From Chitinophagales bacterium (GTDB taxonomy: Bacteria; Bacteroidota; Bacteroidia; Chitinophagales; UBA10324), in the NCBI GenBank assembly GCA_013816805.1, contig JACDDS010000001.1, positions 333,001 to 397,000 on the forward strand: a stretch of DNA of 64,000 nucleotides. The letters are read 5' to 3'. Below are positions 46,760 through 64,000 of this stretch, piece by piece. The notes under the pieces were generated by a model. That model was not told the DNA's origin, made no database searches, and worked only from the letters and a program-made list of their open reading frames with translations. Made by a program: the position numbers and the translations under genes. Position 1 is the stretch's first letter, and every line of letters starts with the position of its first letter.

Positions 46760-49700
46760 GTGGACCAGAAAAAAATAGAATTTATTCAAATTTTTCGCCA
46801 AAAAGTTCTTCTCGCTAACAAAGAACTCACAAAAAAAGAATTGTTTAAGGATCTTCTGCACCATTTATACTCGGGTGATGAAGAAATTGACAAAATAATT
46901 AATTTAATAAGTGCCGGTGCAGAATACACCGTTCTGAATATTCCAAGAAAAGATAAAAAGCATCGTGGCAGCGCAGACACCTTATACAACCGCATCATTA
47001 TTGAGTTTGAGAATGATTTAAAAGTTTCTTTAAAACACGCTAAGGAACAGTTAGCCGGTTATATGTTAGGGCAGTTCAATAGTGGTGAAGGATATACTTA
47101 TACATTGATTGCTTCTGATTTTATTAACTGGAAAGTGGTAGTGCCTGATGTAAGCCAGTTAGAAAAACTGCAAGACCTTCAGGAACATGAACTGATACTA
47201 AATGAGGTTCCTACTTCTTCATTTACACTTACGGAAAGCAATGCAGAAGATTTTTATTATTGGCTCGACCGTTTTCTTTTCAAAGAAGAAAAGCAAAGAG
47301 CAACATTAAAAAGAATTGAAGAAGCCTTTGGCTACCGCAGTTCAACTTTCATAGAAAGTTTTCGCCAAATATCTGCCGTGTTTCAGGATGCAAAAAAGTA
47401 TGGTGAAGTACAGGTAAGCTATGAGCAATGGAGAAAGTTTTTGAGCATTGCTTATGGTTCATTTGCTGATACTGACAGCGCTTTTGTTATACATACCTAT
47501 TTAAGCGTATTGGCAAAAGTTTTAGCGTATGAAGTATTAAGCAATGATGATTATGTGGACGATGCAGAAATGAAAGCCATTTTAAACGGCAGCATTTTTC
47601 ATAAATACAACATCCGCAATTTCGTTGACAATGATTTTTTCCATTGGGTTCATAAAGACATTTACTTTCAAAAATTAAAAAAAGTCTTTCGCCTGGTGGC
47701 GCAGGAAATTTCAACTTTTGACTTTAATAAAGTTGATGAAGACGTTTTAAAAGGAGTTTACCAGGACCTTATTGATTTAGATACACGCCATGCTTTAGGT
47801 GAATATTATACACCGGATTGGCTTTGCGAAAGAGTAGTGCAGGAATTTGATTTTAAAGCAACAGATAAAATTTTAGATCCCAGTTGCGGTAGCGGTTCAT
47901 TTCTCCGGGCTGCTATCCATCGTTTAAAAGAACTTAATCCCGAAATAACAACAGAGCAGGTAAACAACAGCATCTACGGAATAGACATACACCCTTTGAG
48001 TGTGCAAATTGCTAAAACAACTATGCTGGTAAGTTTAGGAAAAGAAGTTATTAATGCAAAGAAGCCCATTCATATCAACATCACGTTAGCTAATACTTTA
48101 TTAGCTCCTGAAGGTGTAAAGAATTTATTTGGTGGTGAGTTTTTAATGCACATTGATAAAGACAAATATTACCTGAATACACAGGTGTTTGAAGATGTAC
48201 GTTTGTTTGATGAAGCCTTAGAAATTTGCGAAGAATTAGCCGAACAAACACAGGGAAAGAAAATAGAAACCTTACCGGTATTTAGCAACATTTTAAAAAG
48301 GCAGTACAAGCACGGTGGTATTAACGACCAAACCACTGCAAGTTTTTACCAGATTTACACAGGCTTAAAAAAAGTAAAAGAAGCCGGCAGAGATAGCATC
48401 TGGAAGTTCATTGTACAGAATTTATACAAGCCTTATTTCCTTAGCGAAAAGTTTGATTATGTTATTGGCAATCCGCCTTGGTTTACTTTCAGCAGTATTA
48501 AGAATGAAGAATACCAAAATATCCTGAATGCTTTGGCAGAAAATTACCATGTAAAACCAGATAAGGTTGCCAACTTTCCCCACCTTGAAATTGCCGCAAT
48601 TTTTCTTTCTTATTGCACCAGTTATTTTTTAAAAGATAAAGGACAATTAGCCTTTGTACTGCCAAGAAGTTTTTTTAGTGCAGACCATCATGATAACACA
48701 AGAAGCGGAAAAGCAAAGGGCTTTCGCTTAACCAATATTTGGGATCTGCTACAGGTACAACCTTTGTTCCGTGTGCCTTCATCAGTTTTATTTGCAATAA
48801 AAGCAGATGATAAAAAAAGAAGCCTTCCTGCTTCAGGGCAAAGTGGGCTTTCTTTTAGTGGCAACCTGCCTGCACATAACTGTAATTGGGAAACAGCTTC
48901 TAAGAAATTGACAGAAGAAGAAGTAAAATGGTTTTACAGTAAGCAGGGAAATTCATCTGCATTCTCCAATAAGAAAGTTAAAGCCCAAACAAAAATAAAT
49001 CCATACAAAGCATTATTTAAACAAGGCGCTACGATTGTTCCAAGAACTTTTTATTTCATCCAGTTTACACAGGAATTGCCGCCCGACTTTGAGGACAGGA
49101 TTATTAATATTAAAACTTCAGATGCTGTACAACCTGATGCAAAAGTGCCGTGGAAAGGCTTAGATTTTTCAGGCAAAATTGAAAGCCAATTTATATTTAG
49201 AACTGCGTTGTCAAAAAGCATTTTGCCTTTTGCATTATACAAACCTGATTTGATTGTTCTTCCTATAACCATTGAGCTTAACAAGAATAATCAAAAGCAA
49301 ATCAAATTACATTCTGCTAATGAATTAATGAAACAAGGTTATTTAAATGCCTCCAAGTGGTTTCAAAATACAGAGAATGTTTGGAAGGTTCATAGAACTG
49401 AAAAAAATCAGGTAATCAGCAGTGAAGATTATTTGAATTGGCAGAATAAACTTACTGAACAAAATTTGATGAACCAATTTGTTGTACTCTATAATACATC
49501 TGGTAAAGATGCAAATTCAGTTGTGGTTGACAGAAAGAATTTAGATTTTGAATTTTTGATAGACCACAAAAACTACCTCTTTACAACATCTTTAAAAGAG
49601 GAGGCTTACTATCTGTCCTCTTTTTTAAATTCAAGTATTCCGAATGAAATGATGAAAGACTTTCAGTCAAAAGGTTTGTTTGGTGCAAGAGATGTACACA

Positions 49701-49933
49701 AAAAAATTCTTGACATCTATTATCCAAAATATGATGATACAAATGAAGTGCATCAAAAATTAGCCGCACTTAGCCAAACAGCCCACGCTAAAGCATCACA
49801 ATATTTAAAAGACAATGTTCCCAAACAGGAGCTTTCTGCCATACACTTAGGCAGGATAAGAACAGATATTAAAAAACATCTTTCAGAAGAAATGAAAGCA
49901 ATTGATAAGTTGGTTAAAAAAGTGATTCAATAA
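46760..49933 (+). CDS. Type IIG-like restriction-modification enzyme (N6-adenine methylase)
   Basis: A 1057-residue protein with a GTG start; no in-frame ATG is nearby. Motif I ILDPSCGSGSFLRAAI (about 371-386), GIDIHPLSVQIAKTTM and motif IV VIGNPPWFTF (about 568-577) mark a gamma-class adenine methyltransferase of Eco57I/N6_Mtase type. The N-terminal part has GSADTLYNRIIIEFEND (about 75-91), suggesting a PD-(D/E)XK nuclease in which the usual lysine is E, so nuclease activity is not certain. The C-terminal half (from about 650) is the target-recognition region. It is island cargo and probably defends against phages. Confidence 0.85.
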   Translation: MDQKKIEFIQIFRQKVLLANKELTKKELFKDLLHHLYSGDEEIDKIINLISAGAEYTVLNIPRKDKKHRGSADTLYNRIIIEFENDLKVSLKHAKEQLAGYMLGQFNSGEGYTYTLIASDFINWKVVVPDVSQLEKLQDLQEHELILNEVPTSSFTLTESNAEDFYYWLDRFLFKEEKQRATLKRIEEAFGYRSSTFIESFRQISAVFQDAKKYGEVQVSYEQWRKFLSIAYGSFADTDSAFVIHTYLSVLAKVLAYEVLSNDDYVDDAEMKAILNGSIFHKYNIRNFVDNDFFHWVHKDIYFQKLKKVFRLVAQEISTFDFNKVDEDVLKGVYQDLIDLDTRHALGEYYTPDWLCERVVQEFDFKATDKILDPSCGSGSFLRAAIHRLKELNPEITTEQVNNSIYGIDIHPLSVQIAKTTMLVSLGKEVINAKKPIHINITLANTLLAPEGVKNLFGGEFLMHIDKDKYYLNTQVFEDVRLFDEALEICEELAEQTQGKKIETLPVFSNILKRQYKHGGINDQTTASFYQIYTGLKKVKEAGRDSIWKFIVQNLYKPYFLSEKFDYVIGNPPWFTFSSIKNEEYQNILNALAENYHVKPDKVANFPHLEIAAIFLSYCTSYFLKDKGQLAFVLPRSFFSADHHDNTRSGKAKGFRLTNIWDLLQVQPLFRVPSSVLFAIKADDKKRSLPASGQSGLSFSGNLPAHNCNWETASKKLTEEEVKWFYSKQGNSSAFSNKKVKAQTKINPYKALFKQGATIVPRTFYFIQFTQELPPDFEDRIINIKTSDAVQPDAKVPWKGLDFSGKIESQFIFRTALSKSILPFALYKPDLIVLPITIELNKNNQKQIKLHSANELMKQGYLNASKWFQNTENVWKVHRTEKNQVISSEDYLNWQNKLTEQNLMNQFVVLYNTSGKDANSVVVDRKNLDFEFLIDHKNYLFTTSLKEEAYYLSSFLNSSIPNEMMKDFQSKGLFGARDVHKKILDIYYPKYDDTNEVHQKLAALSQTAHAKASQYLKDNVPKQELSAIHLGRIRTDIKKHLSEEMKAIDKLVKKVIQ

Positions 49934-56323: not shown

Positions 56324-56845
56324 ATGCAAAATTCTACAGATAAATTGAAGCGCATTAAAGTGGACTCTTTGTATGGAAAAAAGAAGCATTTTAATGCTGC
56401 AGATCGATTCAAGAAATATCATTATAAGATTGGCATACCTCTCATTGCAATTAATATTTTGACAGGCTCAATTTTATTCTATGTGTTAACTGACGGGGCA
56501 ACTAATTGGATAAAATACGTACCGCTTGTTTTAGCATTAATCGCAGCTTTATTAAGTGGTTTTCAAACCTACTTAAACTTACCTCAAAAAGTAGAAGGTC
56601 ATAGACGAGTAGGTAATCGTTATTTGTCTGTCATGAAAAAATGCGATAGGCTGCAAGGTTATATTGCAGACAACTTAATCACTTTGGAAGTAATGATACA
56701 GCGGCTAGAAGAAATCGCTACTGAAGCAGATGATATAAATAAAGAAGCAGAAGCTTTTCCAACAAATGAAAACGATTATAATGTTGCCCAAAAAGGAATA
56801 AAAGATGGTGAAGAAAATTATACTGACAATGAATTAAATCTCTGA
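56324..56845 (+). CDS. SLATT-domain two-transmembrane protein
   Basis: A 173-residue protein with two transmembrane helices (about residues 35-55 and 63-84). After the second helix comes LNLPQKVEGHRRVGNRYLSV, then a long helix LEVMIQRLEEIATEADDI. This order (short N-terminus, two TM, LP.K...H...G..Y) is characteristic of the SLATT domain, known as a membrane effector fused or linked to SMODS/SLOG sensors. It stands 2 bp before a CD-NTase-like nucleotidyltransferase, so the pair would form a CBASS-type system. The effector is proposed to open pores after binding the nucleotide signal. Confidence 0.82.
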   Translation: MQNSTDKLKRIKVDSLYGKKKHFNAADRFKKYHYKIGIPLIAINILTGSILFYVLTDGATNWIKYVPLVLALIAALLSGFQTYLNLPQKVEGHRRVGNRYLSVMKKCDRLQGYIADNLITLEVMIQRLEEIATEADDINKEAEAFPTNENDYNVAQKGIKDGEENYTDNELNL

Positions 56846-56847
56846 AT

Positions 56848-57654
56848 ATGGCAATATATATAGACAATTATTTACGAACTCTATCAGGCAAATATTATTT
56901 GAAAAATAATTCCGATGAAGTCACTAAAATAGATAGTTCTATAAGTAATCTATTTGGTAACCTTAATAAGGAGTTAGGCAATAAAATAAGAAGGAAATTT
57001 GTTTTTGGGTCATATGATCGAGATACTATTTTACCTAGAAAATTTGATTCTAAATCAGATGTAGATGTGATGATAATTTTTAATCACACTTAATACGAGA
57101 GAACTCCTGATACCTACAGGAGTTGGTTAAAAGACTTTGCCGATAAATATTACAAAGATCGGTATGGCTCGGATGTGGTTAAATCATTTCCAACGGTTGC
57201 AATAAGATTGAATAATATCCATTATGATTTAGTACCTGCCAAAGAAGAAGAATTTATATTTATGAAAACGATTTATATACCTGGAAATTCTGGTTGGAGA
57301 AGTACTGATCCGAATGATGTTAAACAGAAACTGACAGATGCAAATACCAAATATAATAATGTAGTTCGCCCAATAATAAGATTATTAAAAGCATGGAATT
57401 GTAATGTCAGCTATCCGTTTGATTCGTATCTAATGGAGTTGAAATTAACAGGAATGAATTTCTATAATGATACAGTCCAAACCGGCTTCTTTTACGCAGT
57501 AATGCAGCTCAATGCAGACTTGGGTGATCCTCAATTCAAGAAAGACAAAATTGAGAGTCTAAAATATAATACCAATGAAGTAAAAAAGGCTTTGGATGGA
57601 GATGATATGGATAGAGCAAAAAAATGGCTTCATAGAGTGCTGCCAGAAGCCTGA
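56848..57654 (+). pseudogene. CD-NTase-like nucleotidyltransferase with in-frame TAA
   Basis: The 81-codon N-terminal part has FVFGSYDRDTILPRKFDSKS, then DVDVMIIF: the GS...DxD core (GS 54-55, D71/D73) of SMODS-type CD-NTases. TAA at 57091-57093 stops it, but the same frame continues YERTPDTYRSWLKDFADKYY and SFPTVAIRLNNIHYDLVPA (third acidic residue D127), then KAWNCNVSYPFDSYLMELKL to the stop at 57652-57654. Without TAA it would be a complete 268-residue enzyme. TAA is one base from GAA (Glu), which would fit the position. Family members make cyclic oligonucleotide signals on phage infection. Confidence 0.82.
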
Positions 57655-58072: not shown

Positions 58073-59398
58073 TCACTTTTCTACTACTAGCTTTTCATTC
58101 CATCTCTCTTCTGCTGTTTCCAGGGTTACCAAATAGATACCAGTCGAAAAGTCACTTACATCTACTACTTTGGGTTTTGAAGAAGGTGAAAGCATGAATG
58201 TTTTTACTGTTCTGCCGTAGGTATCGGTTATAAAAAGTTTTGCTGGCTGTTGGGTATTGGAACTTATACTAAAATAGTTTTTTGAGGGATTAGGAAAAAT
58301 TTTTAATACTTTATTTTCTTTTATCAATGGTGCCGAGGTTGCGATGCCGTTTTCGAGGTAAGCGACATGGTTAGCTTTTACACCACCTGCTTTGAGAAAA
58401 GTACCTCCAACATATAAATCACGATTAAAAAACCCCATGCTGAATACCGGATCCTGTACTCCAAAGCCGACGTCTAACCATTCGCTGCCATCCCAGTATG
58501 CTACCCTATTGGGATTGCAGGTATCTTTTTTACTGGTTCCAAACCAACCGCCGGCATATACACCATGTTCTCCATTAGATTGTAAATCTTCCACTTCACC
58601 GCATATCCCTGGCATCGTATGCCACATTTGCCCATCCCATGCTGCAACCCAATTTGCATCGTTGTCACCAGCCTGGTCAAAGAACCCTCCTGCAATAACC
58701 ATATCATTGTAAACAGTTAATGCTTCTACTTGTCCTAAATTATCAAATTCTTTATATATAACACCGCCATCAAAGAAATCCCATTGATGCCCATCCCAGG
58801 AAGCAATGTTATTTACAAGCGAATCACCGATATAGGCAAATGCTCCTCCTACAATCAACTTATCTTTATAGATGCAGAAGTCATCTACATTGCCTTCCAC
58901 GCCACCCCCTACAATTTCCCATTTCTTTCCATTATATTTTTTAATGCCTCCAAAAAAGTCTCCACCAGCAAAAAGAGTATCGTGGTACATTATAAAAGCA
59001 AATACAGGACCTGCAACTGACGGTAAATCGTCTAGAAAATGGTTGTTATAGAATCTACCTACTCCATGCTGATTGGAATATACCAACGTATCATGCAACA
59101 TGATAGAACCCGTCACTTCAGCATTTATAGAAATTCCATTATGTTCTACGGTATTCCAATCAGTTCCATTCCATATAGCAAGATAGCGTGAAATCGTATC
59201 ACCTGCATAGTAGAATTCACCACCCACATATAACAGGTGATTAACGGTATCCTCTGAAAAGGTATTAACGATACCTCCGGTAGGATCTTTTTCTTCGCGA
59301 ACCCCAGCTCCTAATGGTGACCAAACTTGGCTAAATGATACCTGATTAATATTAAAAAGCACTATAGTAAATCCTAAAATTTTCCCAATTTTTATCAT
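58073..59398 (-). CDS. T9SS protein with GG-F-AG-D repeats
   Basis: The 441-residue protein has a signal peptide (MIKIGKILGFTIVLFNINQV; cut near SFSQ). Repeats of the form LYVGGEFYYAGDTISRYLAIWN, LIVGGAFAYIGDSLVNNIASW and VIAGGFFDQAGDNDANWVAAW are delta-60/kelch-like. A T9SS sorting domain ends the protein (LKIFPNPSKNYFSISSNTQQ to WNEKLVVEK). Its ATG overlaps the end of the upstream large gene by 4 bp, so the two are co-transcribed. Function unknown; likely surface-exposed. Confidence 0.8.
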   Translation of the reverse strand: MIKIGKILGFTIVLFNINQVSFSQVWSPLGAGVREEKDPTGGIVNTFSEDTVNHLLYVGGEFYYAGDTISRYLAIWNGTDWNTVEHNGISINAEVTGSIMLHDTLVYSNQHGVGRFYNNHFLDDLPSVAGPVFAFIMYHDTLFAGGDFFGGIKKYNGKKWEIVGGGVEGNVDDFCIYKDKLIVGGAFAYIGDSLVNNIASWDGHQWDFFDGGVIYKEFDNLGQVEALTVYNDMVIAGGFFDQAGDNDANWVAAWDGQMWHTMPGICGEVEDLQSNGEHGVYAGGWFGTSKKDTCNPNRVAYWDGSEWLDVGFGVQDPVFSMGFFNRDLYVGGTFLKAGGVKANHVAYLENGIATSAPLIKENKVLKIFPNPSKNYFSISSNTQQPAKLFITDTYGRTVKTFMLSPSSKPKVVDVSDFSTGIYLVTLETAEERWNEKLVVEK

Positions 59399-62300
59399 AT
59401 TTTGAATATTGATTTCACAATTACCTGATCTCCTAAAATTACTTTTACAAAATAAGGACCTTCTGGCAGGTTATGGTCCAAGGTAATTTTGGCTTCCATA
59501 TTTTGTAAAAAAGGTCTTTCCGAATAAGATAAAATTCTTCCAAACGGATCCAGAACCTCAATGAATAAGTTAGAGGCAGGCTTTTGAATGCTATTTTGAT
59601 AAATCATTAATTTAAAATCGTCTTCTGTCGGATTTGGGAATATAGCTATTTGTAGTGAATTTTCAATGAGTGATGAATTGTTAGCTGTATCACTTTGCAG
59701 TTTATTCGTTAAACATTGGCTGTTATCTTTTACGACAGTGAGCGTTAAAGGTTCTGAGAAAAAGATACAGTTAATGCTGCTTTTAGTGTATCTACATTGA
59801 TATATTACGGGCAAACCAAGCGGTACATCATCATAATTAATCGAATAAGTTGGATTTGTCTCACCAGGAATATCAATTCCATTTTTTTGCCATTGCTGGG
59901 AATAGCCACTGGCCTCAAGGGCTGTAACTACATAAGATCCATTAGATTTACAATCCACAACTGTACCGCATGCATCACACCAGGTTTGTTTCTCAACGGT
60001 TACTGTTACGTCACCTGAAGAGCAACACCCAGCCTCGTTATTCGAAGTTTTAATGCCATTAGCTGTAAAAGTATATGGTTCAGTTCTATATGGAAGAGAG
60101 GTAGTGTTTACGAGGGCACCTGTTAATTTTTGTAAATACGTGCCTGGTGACCATTGATAAAAATCAGCATCACTTGAATTAGTTAATTCTAAAGTAGCGC
60201 ATTCACCTTCTTTAATGGTTATATTTCCATATTTAACACCTACGGTTGGGTCCGCATCATTAACCGTGAATTCTATTATTGCTTCATTTGTAGCATTTTC
60301 GCATCCAGGGAAATCTGAGGCTGTTTTCCCTTGGACTATATATGATACCGAACTATTATTGCTCAGATCATCGCTTGGGGTGACTGTATAACTACTTTCC
60401 GTAGCACCAGAAATTTGGTTACTTAAATTATTTTTATACCACTGATATGATCCATCATAAGTGTGGCTTCCGCTTTCTTCATCAGCGCCTGAACTTTTTA
60501 TTTCTACACTTTCCCCTGTACACAGATCTAGTCTAGGAGGTGGTGTTATTATTATACTGGGAACAAGATTTACCGTAGTAAATTTTTTAATTGATTTTGT
60601 TCCTTTAGTTATTATGACCATCGCTGTAAATGATTCAGATGGATAATTATTATCTGTAGTCGAGATTGTTAGAGTATAAGAACTAAGGCTAGAGTTTGCA
60701 TGTCTTAATAATATGTTCGGCATTTCGGACACATTGTACCAATCATAGGAATCAGTTTGGGAACCAAAAGGAGACGTAGCGGTCAAGCTAATATTTTCAC
60801 TTGAGCAAAAAGCATCTCCATCAGCATAGTTAACTGTTATTGCAAGATCATTAATTCTATTAACATTGGCGGACCCCAATGAAAAGCATCCAGTTGTATG
60901 GTCTACTCCTGTTACCTGGTACGCCATATAATCATAAGTATAAATCTTTTTATAATTATCTGCTGCTGAAAGGTAATCCGTGTATTGATTCGGACGCGCA
61001 TAAACTGTGCTCGCTTTAATCTTGCTGCTTCCTGCAATTGGATCATTATAAAGTCCGAGGGTGGGAGACCACCAATAGTGTAAAGTTGAATTCGTGCTGG
61101 ACGCAGTTAACTGTTGACCTTGTGCTGTGCTTAAATCATATGATCCTAATGAGGTAGGGGTAACAGTTATTACAGGCGGATCATTGACAGTTATCTGGCA
61201 ACTGGCCGAATTATTTGTATTATCCGCATCTGAAACTGTAATAGTGAAATTTCCTGACTTTTGAGGTATAAAGGTTACATTGTTTTCCTCATAGCTGCTT
61301 AGAAAAGATTTATAAGAAGATGGCTCTTGCTGACTTGATAAATTCCAATTGTATTTTGAAGCACCAGTAACTGAAAGATTTACACTTGTTCCCTGAATAG
61401 GAGCACCATTTCCTGATGTACCATTGAATAATTTGTAACTACAAGGTACAACACTAGACTCGCATGTAAGATGTATATTGGTTTTAATCTGATAAATACG
61501 AGTGATGGAATATGCGGGTAAAGTGACAAATGATTGTGAATTTACTGAAGCAGTAGACAATGTTGGAGGGGTAATAAGCAATTTAGGATATTTATCAATA
61601 TTTTCTGTACTTGCTCCTTTATATACTCCACTCTGAGTATAGTATGCTATCTCATTTCCACCTATGACATACGCAATAGGGTTGAGGTAACTTTTCTTCC
61701 CAGTTGCAACGCTTATTTGTTCATAGCCAGCGCCGACAGATGTAGCCCATTCAAATTCAGATAACAATACAGATTTATCTGTTCCTCCTAAGTTTAGGAT
61801 TATCACCTGCTCTATATTATAAGTTGAATTGGGCCTATTGAATTTCCAACCATATAGAACGGTATCAGTCAGGCCCACCTTTATTACTTCTGAAGTCTTA
61901 AAGCTTAATTTAATCGCTTGTGTATTCTCTCTCATAGCTTCTCCAATTAATTTCATTCCATTTCCTACAGCGGTAAGTTGCCATGGTAAAGTTATGAGCT
62001 GAACAGATGAATGTATCGGGCTGCCGTCAAAATCGAATCCATGATCATCTACAAAAAAGGCACCTTGGTGCGCATCCAGTGTCATCGTTTGAGCATAAAT
62101 ATGCTTAATCTTTGCAAACTCTAAGTATTGCAAAGTCATTGCTGACATAAACAACCCATGCGCCCAGCTTCCCGGCACTTGATGTAATTGATCACTCATA
62201 TTATATTCTGTGATCCATGCTCCAACTGAATTTGGAATTACTTTTAATGAATTATCCCGAAAATATTTATTGACAGCTTCAAACGGGTAAGATAAAATGT

Positions 62301-64000
62301 CTGGTAAATCGCTTACTAAAGGAAATGCATGTCCTAGAACACCAGAAGCAGGATAGTGATGAAAGCTTAATGCATCGCCCGATATCAAATGTAATTGCGA
62401 ATTGCTCGATATATCCTTTGCAGGAAGATTCATAACAGCATTCCACGTATTTTCTCGACAGATTTTACCGTCCAAATTTCCTACATCTTCGGTATTATCT
62501 CCATCTTCTAATCCTGGAGATGCAGCGACTACACTTACTTTCACATCATCATAATCATCATGAAGATGATCTATATATGAGTTCGCCGCTGAAACATACT
62601 GTTGTGCATTTGGAAAGGCACACCATGTCTTATAATGCCCACCCAAATAAATTTCGTTTCCAAGTTCTACATACTTCAAGTTAAGCTTTAAATCGTCGGC
62701 AAAATCCAAAGATTTTTTGTCATAATCATATGTAGAGTATAGCATATTAAAGAAAAATAAGGCATCCGCATGGTTGCCGTCTAAAGAAAATTTAATATCC
62801 GTAAAGTGATCACTAATAACATCGCCTTTCGGTTTGTATAAATCATCTGCAATACAGCCAATATTTTCAGGGAAATTAATTGGTAAATTATTAGCATTCA
62901 AAGGATCTTGATTCTGATAAATATCAGGTTCATAATACCAGCCTTTATTCCAATCCCAAACACCGGACCCATTATGAAGTCGGAAAAGTCTGCTGTTTAA
63001 GGAAGGTAAATTAGTTATAAGCGATAAATCATTCCATCCCCCGTACCCATTGCCAATCAGATCACTTGCATCCTGATGAACAGTTTTTGTATTTTCTGTA
63101 TTATAACCTAGAAAATCTTGATACGTATCCCCATCTTCGTCCAAATCATGGACATAAGAAGATAGCACCTTTGTAGGAACATATGAAGCAGGGTAGAAAT
63201 TAACATTACGTGATACAAAATCAATAAGTGCAGAGTTTAGTGAAATGTCATTCTTTGCCATTAATGATGTTTTACCATAAATAGAATCACCTTCTATGTT
63301 TATTTTTGAAAAAATGTTTCCTTCAAAATTGACCCAATGGTGTACAATACATTTATTGCTGACAATAAAAAATATTCTTGCAGGATCATGAGAAAGATTA
63401 TTTACAAAAGCCCCTTTATTTAATACAAATGAATCCCGAATAAGAAAAATAAAATACGCATTGTTTCCTCCATTTAAGGTTAGTGTATCGTGCAAATATG
63501 CTGCACTATCTATCCTATATACACCTGGCGAATATGTTTTTGAAGATAGATCATTTGGAATTAAATTAGCCGGTAATCTATTGAATTTAGCAATTACTGA
63601 ATCTAAATCTGTAAGAGCCGAATCTACGGTAGTGTTATTGATATATAAGCCGTTCGTTGCTGTTACCGTCGATGAAATTGATGTTTTCGCTCCAGCACGC
63701 CCCGCAGTATTCGTACTATCAACCGCTAAAATTGTATGCCCTGACAGTAGGCCATACAAACTAGTTTTATTTATCGAGGGCGGTTTTACTGTAACAATTC
63801 TATCATTCAATGCGGAGCATCCAACGCTATCAGTAACTAAAACAGAGTAAACATCTGAAAATTGATAATTAGTTACAGGATTAATCACCGAATCAATTCC
63901 TATAGTTTCCGATGTAGACCATAGTATCGTATAAGGCGCCTGACCTCCTGAAACTGTTGGTGATCCCCCCAGAGTTAATGAATTGTAACCAATGGTAAGT
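59395..64000 (-). CDS. Giant T9SS protein: DUF3494-like, glycosidase-like and Ig-like domains (5' end beyond window)
   Basis: The frame is open to the window edge, so the N-terminus is missing; the GTG at 63888 is not a convincing start. The first domain is PKD/SprB-like (LGGSPTVSGGQAPYTILWS). A DUF3494 ice-binding-like segment follows (DLSSKTYSPGVYRIDSAAYL, NNAYFIFLIRDSF). A TIM-barrel-like glycosidase region comes next, with VELGNEIYLGG and WITEYNMSD as possible acid/base and nucleophile sites; this resembles GH-A arabinofuranosidase-type enzymes. Several Ig/PKD-like modules lead to a T9SS sorting domain (IAIFPNPTEDDFKLMIYQNS to IVKSIFKI). At least 1535 residues. Enzyme activity is inferred only from the motifs. 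Confidence 0.78.
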   Translation of the reverse strand, partial: LTIGYNSLTLGGSPTVSGGQAPYTILWSTSETIGIDSVINPVTNYQFSDVYSVLVTDSVGCSALNDRIVTVKPPSINKTSLYGLLSGHTILAVDSTNTAGRAGAKTSISSTVTATNGLYINNTTVDSALTDLDSVIAKFNRLPANLIPNDLSSKTYSPGVYRIDSAAYLHDTLTLNGGNNAYFIFLIRDSFVLNKGAFVNNLSHDPARIFFIVSNKCIVHHWVNFEGNIFSKINIEGDSIYGKTSLMAKNDISLNSALIDFVSRNVNFYPASYVPTKVLSSYVHDLDEDGDTYQDFLGYNTENTKTVHQDASDLIGNGYGGWNDLSLITNLPSLNSRLFRLHNGSGVWDWNKGWYYEPDIYQNQDPLNANNLPINFPENIGCIADDLYKPKGDVISDHFTDIKFSLDGNHADALFFFNMLYSTYDYDKKSLDFADDLKLNLKYVELGNEIYLGGHYKTWCAFPNAQQYVSAANSYIDHLHDDYDDVKVSVVAASPGLEDGDNTEDVGNLDGKICRENTWNAVMNLPAKDISSNSQLHLISGDALSFHHYPASGVLGHAFPLVSDLPDILSYPFEAVNKYFRDNSLKVIPNSVGAWITEYNMSDQLHQVPGSWAHGLFMSAMTLQYLEFAKIKHIYAQTMTLDAHQGAFFVDDHGFDFDGSPIHSSVQLITLPWQLTAVGNGMKLIGEAMRENTQAIKLSFKTSEVIKVGLTDTVLYGWKFNRPNSTYNIEQVIILNLGGTDKSVLLSEFEWATSVGAGYEQISVATGKKSYLNPIAYVIGGNEIAYYTQSGVYKGASTENIDKYPKLLITPPTLSTASVNSQSFVTLPAYSITRIYQIKTNIHLTCESSVVPCSYKLFNGTSGNGAPIQGTSVNLSVTGASKYNWNLSSQQEPSSYKSFLSSYEENNVTFIPQKSGNFTITVSDADNTNNSASCQITVNDPPVITVTPTSLGSYDLSTAQGQQLTASSTNSTLHYWWSPTLGLYNDPIAGSSKIKASTVYARPNQYTDYLSAADNYKKIYTYDYMAYQVTGVDHTTGCFSLGSANVNRINDLAITVNYADGDAFCSSENISLTATSPFGSQTDSYDWYNVSEMPNILLRHANSSLSSYTLTISTTDNNYPSESFTAMVIITKGTKSIKKFTTVNLVPSIIITPPPRLDLCTGESVEIKSSGADEESGSHTYDGSYQWYKNNLSNQISGATESSYTVTPSDDLSNNSSVSYIVQGKTASDFPGCENATNEAIIEFTVNDADPTVGVKYGNITIKEGECATLELTNSSDADFYQWSPGTYLQKLTGALVNTTSLPYRTEPYTFTANGIKTSNNEAGCCSSGDVTVTVEKQTWCDACGTVVDCKSNGSYVVTALEASGYSQQWQKNGIDIPGETNPTYSINYDDVPLGLPVIYQCRYTKSSINCIFFSEPLTLTVVKDNSQCLTNKLQSDTANNSSLIENSLQIAIFPNPTEDDFKLMIYQNSIQKPASNLFIEVLDPFGRILSYSERPFLQNMEAKITLDHNLPEGPYFVKVILGDQVIVKSIFKI

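Follow-up and report, generated by a model that had tools for sequence, protein, structure and literature searches.

DUF3494 domains (PF11999) are routinely annotated as "ice-binding", and ice binding is their best-known role. A T-A/G-x-T/N motif is known from some ice-binding faces of these proteins. In glycosidases of clan GH-A, the catalytic glutamates lie after strands 4 and 7 of the barrel. We searched the literature for a DUF3494-glycosidase fusion and found no report of one; the word "hydrolase" does not occur in PMC9957290, which surveyed 116 DUF3494 architectures in samples from the Arctic, while Pfam lists 237 of them. Here we describe a giant protein in which a DUF3494 domain stands directly ahead of a glycosidase-like domain. 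DUF3494 placed before sugar-cutting enzymes would provide a direct test case for another DUF3494 ligand.

A giant T9SS protein carrying a DUF3494 domain

The analysed stretch of DNA (the window, 64,000 nt) comes from the Chitinophagales bacterium GCA_013816805.1 (contig JACDDS010000001.1, positions 333,001-397,000, forward strand). A real ORF occupies 59395-64000 on the minus strand, with no stop up to the window edge, and encodes residues ~781-2315 of a large T9SS protein. In the parent genome, the start codon lies 2342 bases past the window edge; the whole gene spans C1:392395-399342 and the full protein has 2315 aa. It begins with a signal peptide, called by eye, and a beta-rich stalk reaching up to ~610. 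Both are encoded on the minus strand outside the window and were read from the parent-genome ORF. PKD-like repeats follow up to ~855, and the last of these PKD-like/SprB-like repeats (63778-64000, minus strand; weak Pfam matches below cut-off) precede the DUF3494 domain (residues ~856-1048; 63199-63777, minus strand). Next come the glycosidase-like domain (residues ~1055-1620; 61483-63180, minus strand), Ig/PKD-like modules (59653-61482, minus strand) and a T9SS C-terminal sorting domain (residues 2234-2310; 59413-59643, minus strand). The initial annotation had proposed Ig/PKD modules and a sorting domain in this part. The sorting domain stands, since PF18962 matches with 28 bits, barely above its cut-off of 27, marking the protein as T9SS type A cargo. 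For the modules, we find only low-scoring Pfam matches below threshold (such as Y_Y_Y and, in the duplicate copy of the gene, Ig_2), and their assignment stays at Ig/PKD-like.

Scanning the whole 2315-aa protein against Pfam at E 1 missed the DUF3494 domain, and scanning the segment by itself recovered it with 54.8 bits against a curated cut-off of 28.7. Single-sequence searches of the PDB gave weak matches for DUF3494 and nothing for the enzyme domain, so profiles were required. A profile of nine fused-type DUF3494 domains (A5) reached the solved ice-binding proteins 5uyt and 7bwx (AnpIBP) with E values of 4.5e-19 and 7e-15. The predicted structure, of mean pLDDT 61, forms a beta-solenoid with a bracing helix; confidence is good for most of residues 73-198 and poor for the ~72 residues ahead of them. 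The model matched ice-binding proteins with Z scores of 15-18, the best being 18.0 over 166 residues (rmsd 2.4), and the best unrelated fold reached 8.7. The DUF3494-like segment named in the initial annotation is thus corroborated by family model, profile and predicted fold.

The likeness to PF11999 ice-binding proteins (FfIBP 4nu2, 5uyt, AnpIBP 7bwx) lies in the fold, a helix with a discontinuous solenoid, and in the sequence profile. In contrast to them, the window domain belongs to a divergent subfamily, has few Thr motifs and sits inside a giant T9SS enzyme. The fused domains score 283-307 bits on their own profile, compared to 25-124 bits for other DUF3494 domains. Counting the T-A/G-x-T/N motif, we find 0-1 per fused domain, whereas the eight small, unfused DUF3494 proteins from the same order have 2-4; the count is crude, made without coordinates, and blind to which face the residues occupy. 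Because the Thr motifs are sparse, ice binding by the fused domains appears not to be favoured.

A predicted clan GH-A enzyme family, distinct from GH51 and GH79 by family models

No Pfam or NCBIfam family matched the glycosidase-like domain above cut-off. Its 43-sequence profile (A2) found GH51 arabinofuranosidases with an E value of 6.1e-10 and, weakly, heparanases (GH79; E 0.01). A structure model of the DUF3494 and enzyme domains together (mean pLDDT 71.8) shows a beta/alpha barrel plus a beta-sandwich, the latter encoded from ~61920 downwards, and its best matches were GH51 (Z 26.6) and GH79 (Z 25.0). Checking the codons, we placed the GNE (62653-62661) and TEYN (62200-62211) motifs inside the barrel domain. 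The Glu1230 codon of GNE lies at 62653-62655 (minus strand) and the Glu1379 codon of TEYN at 62206-62208 (minus strand). The strand order in the predicted model puts these residues at the ends of strands 4 and 7, as the presumed acid/base and nucleophile, which together with the alignment is the clan GH-A arrangement. The strand-2 Arg, the Glu of GNE, the Tyr of an H-x-Y pair and the Glu of TEYN are present in 106/106 aligned rows, and the His in 105/106, where a few rows repeat one sequence. All the fused copies retain both glutamates, the Arg and the H-x-Y pair. The strand-2 PGG loop is changed to HNG in the window copy and to HFG in its nearest paralog. A TIM-barrel-like region with GNE and TEYN, as first proposed, therefore withstood structure prediction, and models lacking either the solenoid or the barrel, which would have spoken against the proposed fusion, were not obtained.

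We then considered membership in the two nearest families. GH51 alpha-L-arabinofuranosidases have in common with the window enzyme the barrel plus beta-sandwich, an RxPGG-like strand 2, GNE, H-x-Y and the strand-7 Glu; however, the identity is only 10-16% in the structure alignment. The GH51 Pfam models matched 0/43 family members at E 0.1, and NCBIfam ArfA matched 22/43 (best 1.7e-8), the window member not among them. GH79 beta-glucuronidases and heparanases have the same fold and the weak profile match noted above, and Glyco_hydro_79n matched 2/43 members (best E 0.001) and gave no match to the window member. Since the fold and active site of the clan are kept and the window member matches no GH51 or GH79 family model, we file the domain as a clan GH-A enzyme family, by these models neither GH51 nor GH79, that has no curated Pfam or NCBIfam entry. 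Arabinoside or glucuronoside substrates, taken from the nearest folds, would be guesses.

The source genome holds nine paralogous glycosidase-like domains. Relatives were found at 65 loci in other genomes, including Chitinophagales MAGs, cyanobacteria, actinomycetes and Acidithiobacillus. Members of the family occur in Bacteroidota, Cyanobacteriota, Actinomycetota and Pseudomonadota, among other phyla. A relative on a Rhodococcus plasmid is annotated "hypothetical protein", and the phages searched contained no relative. The lack of a curated model, the spread over several phyla and the full clan GH-A active site make this a candidate new CAZyme family.

Recurrence of the fusion and its proposed function

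In the source genome, all five DUF3494 domains precede a GH-A enzyme, and four further paralogs have the GH-A domain without DUF3494. Searching for the same domain order, we found five more fusions in three related genomes (L027 and L030, L029, L028 and L147). The order is thus kept in ten proteins from four genomes at ~30% identity between genera, which indicates that it is old. Among 16 genomes of the family, the fused-type subfamily occurs 11 times, in those four genomes, and a twelfth DUF3494 match is a small ordinary DUF3494 protein. Of 298 genomes of the order, 33 contained DUF3494 and 62 had matches to the GH-A family at a threshold of 1e-6 (the weakest matches may be other GH-A families), and fusions were seen in a single family of Chitinophagales-like bacteria. 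The initial annotation had called the fusion unusual, which agrees with this restriction among the genomes searched. Most relatives of the GH-A domain have no DUF3494, and none of three long DUF3494 proteins of the order that were closely checked contains the enzyme. Two giant DUF3494 proteins from another family of the order (L152:4313-9517, L153:3394-7650) have PKD repeats and no glycosidase; their C-terminal part looks right-handed beta-helix-like by eye. In a tree of the GH domain, the fused copies fall in two places, one with eight and the other with the pair C21 and C7.

The eleventh member of the subfamily, L149 (L149:1774-5649), carries a GH16 domain (PF00722, 61.9 bits) after DUF3494 instead of GH-A. 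Over stalk, PKD repeats and DUF3494, it is 46% identical to the window protein (635 aa), whereas its laminarinase-like GH16 domain has an unrelated catalytic fold with no similarity to the window GH-A domain. The exchange of modules rests on this one protein. Its GH16 catalytic motif reads EIDFFD, with Asp replacing the usual last Glu, which leaves GH16 activity uncertain.

We propose, with a probability of roughly 0.6, that the large protein is a secreted, surface-displayed modular glycoside hydrolase in which DUF3494 serves as a docking module for the enzyme. The T9SS tail would direct export and anchoring, and the stalk and PKD-like repeats would keep the functional part at a distance from the cell. 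The solenoid, directly before the catalytic domain, would dock the enzyme on a polysaccharide or another structured surface. The retaining GH-A domain, with Glu1230 as acid/base and Glu1379 as nucleophile, may then cleave the polymer at the docking site. The same stalk/DUF3494 part followed by interchangeable enzymes suggests a module for enzyme targeting, and the recurrence of the pairing, once with a different enzyme, makes a docking module likelier than an antifreeze. The occurrence of DUF3494 ahead of both GH-A and GH16 fits better with an accessory targeting module than with a stand-alone adhesin or ice-binder; four GH-A paralogs without DUF3494 are what would be expected of an accessory. 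An adhesin at the cell surface that also has hydrolase activity, as first suggested, is a reasonable conjecture. We consider it possible, at somewhat less than even odds, that this lineage has repurposed the ice-binding fold as a carbohydrate- or surface-binding module, swapped among catalytic domains that include a new multi-phylum clan GH-A family annotated as "hypothetical".

The homology of DUF3494 to proven ice-binding proteins, in fold and in sequence, raises the question of whether the protein is a hydrolase anchored to ice or a cold surface, in which DUF3494 would bind ice or brine-channel surfaces and keep both the cell and its enzyme where ice meets water. We regard this as unlikely, in view of the separate subfamily, the scarcity of the Thr motif by our crude count, and a report that DUF3494 also occurs in rock and subsurface habitats and binds substrate (PMC12337378). 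An estimate of growth temperature from amino-acid content was set aside, as the sample consists largely of secreted T9SS proteins. It is about equally improbable that the protein is an adhesin whose degenerate, non-catalytic barrel only binds glycans. The large modular T9SS architecture with Ig/PKD-like repeats and the altered PGG loop would suit such an adhesin, but the catalytic residues are intact in all the fused copies.

Unrelated domains might also have been joined by chance or by recent recombination, with no functional coupling. Among the five paralogs (C1, C7, C8, C21; L006-L010), the N-terminal stalk is 85-95% identical in amino acids where unbroken, compared to 29-58% for the enzyme domains, and several copies are frameshifted. 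However, the age of the domain order makes a chance joining a distant prospect next to the docking-module reading.

Paralogous copies and neighbouring genes

The far greater likeness of the stalk than of the enzyme points to recombination or gene conversion acting on these genes. At the DNA level, the first 1.8 kb of the paralogs is mostly 68-95% identical, and identity then goes down to ~40-70%. These sequences suggest gene conversion or a common recent origin of the stalk. Three of the five fusion copies in the source genome are frameshifted in the GCA_013816805.1 assembly, in the enzyme (second C1 copy), the stalk (C21) and the C-terminal part (C8). The second C1 gene and its 440-aa partner lie ~12 kb upstream (genome C1:403160-411431; L006:12161-16911, L007:1109-4432); a single frameshift interrupts the glycosidase domain of this gene.

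The partner gene in the window (58073-59398, minus strand) encodes a 441-aa beta-propeller-like T9SS protein. There is a 4-base overlap between its ATG and the stop of the large gene. In 4/5 copies, a gene for a T9SS protein of 440-522 aa lies directly 3′ of the large gene, with the ends touching or overlapping; in the C8 copy, which lies at a contig end, a start codon is present at the partner position.

Elsewhere in the window, a CBASS-like pair at 56324-57654 consists of a SLATT_4 two-TM effector (PF18186, 53 bits) and, after it, a cyclase-like ORF. The match of this ORF to an oligonucleotide cyclase profile (129.7 bits) covers only the C-terminal part, positions 102-259 of 261, and the ORF lacks the N-terminal half. 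An Eco57I/N6-type DNA methyltransferase of 1057 aa is encoded at 46760-49933.
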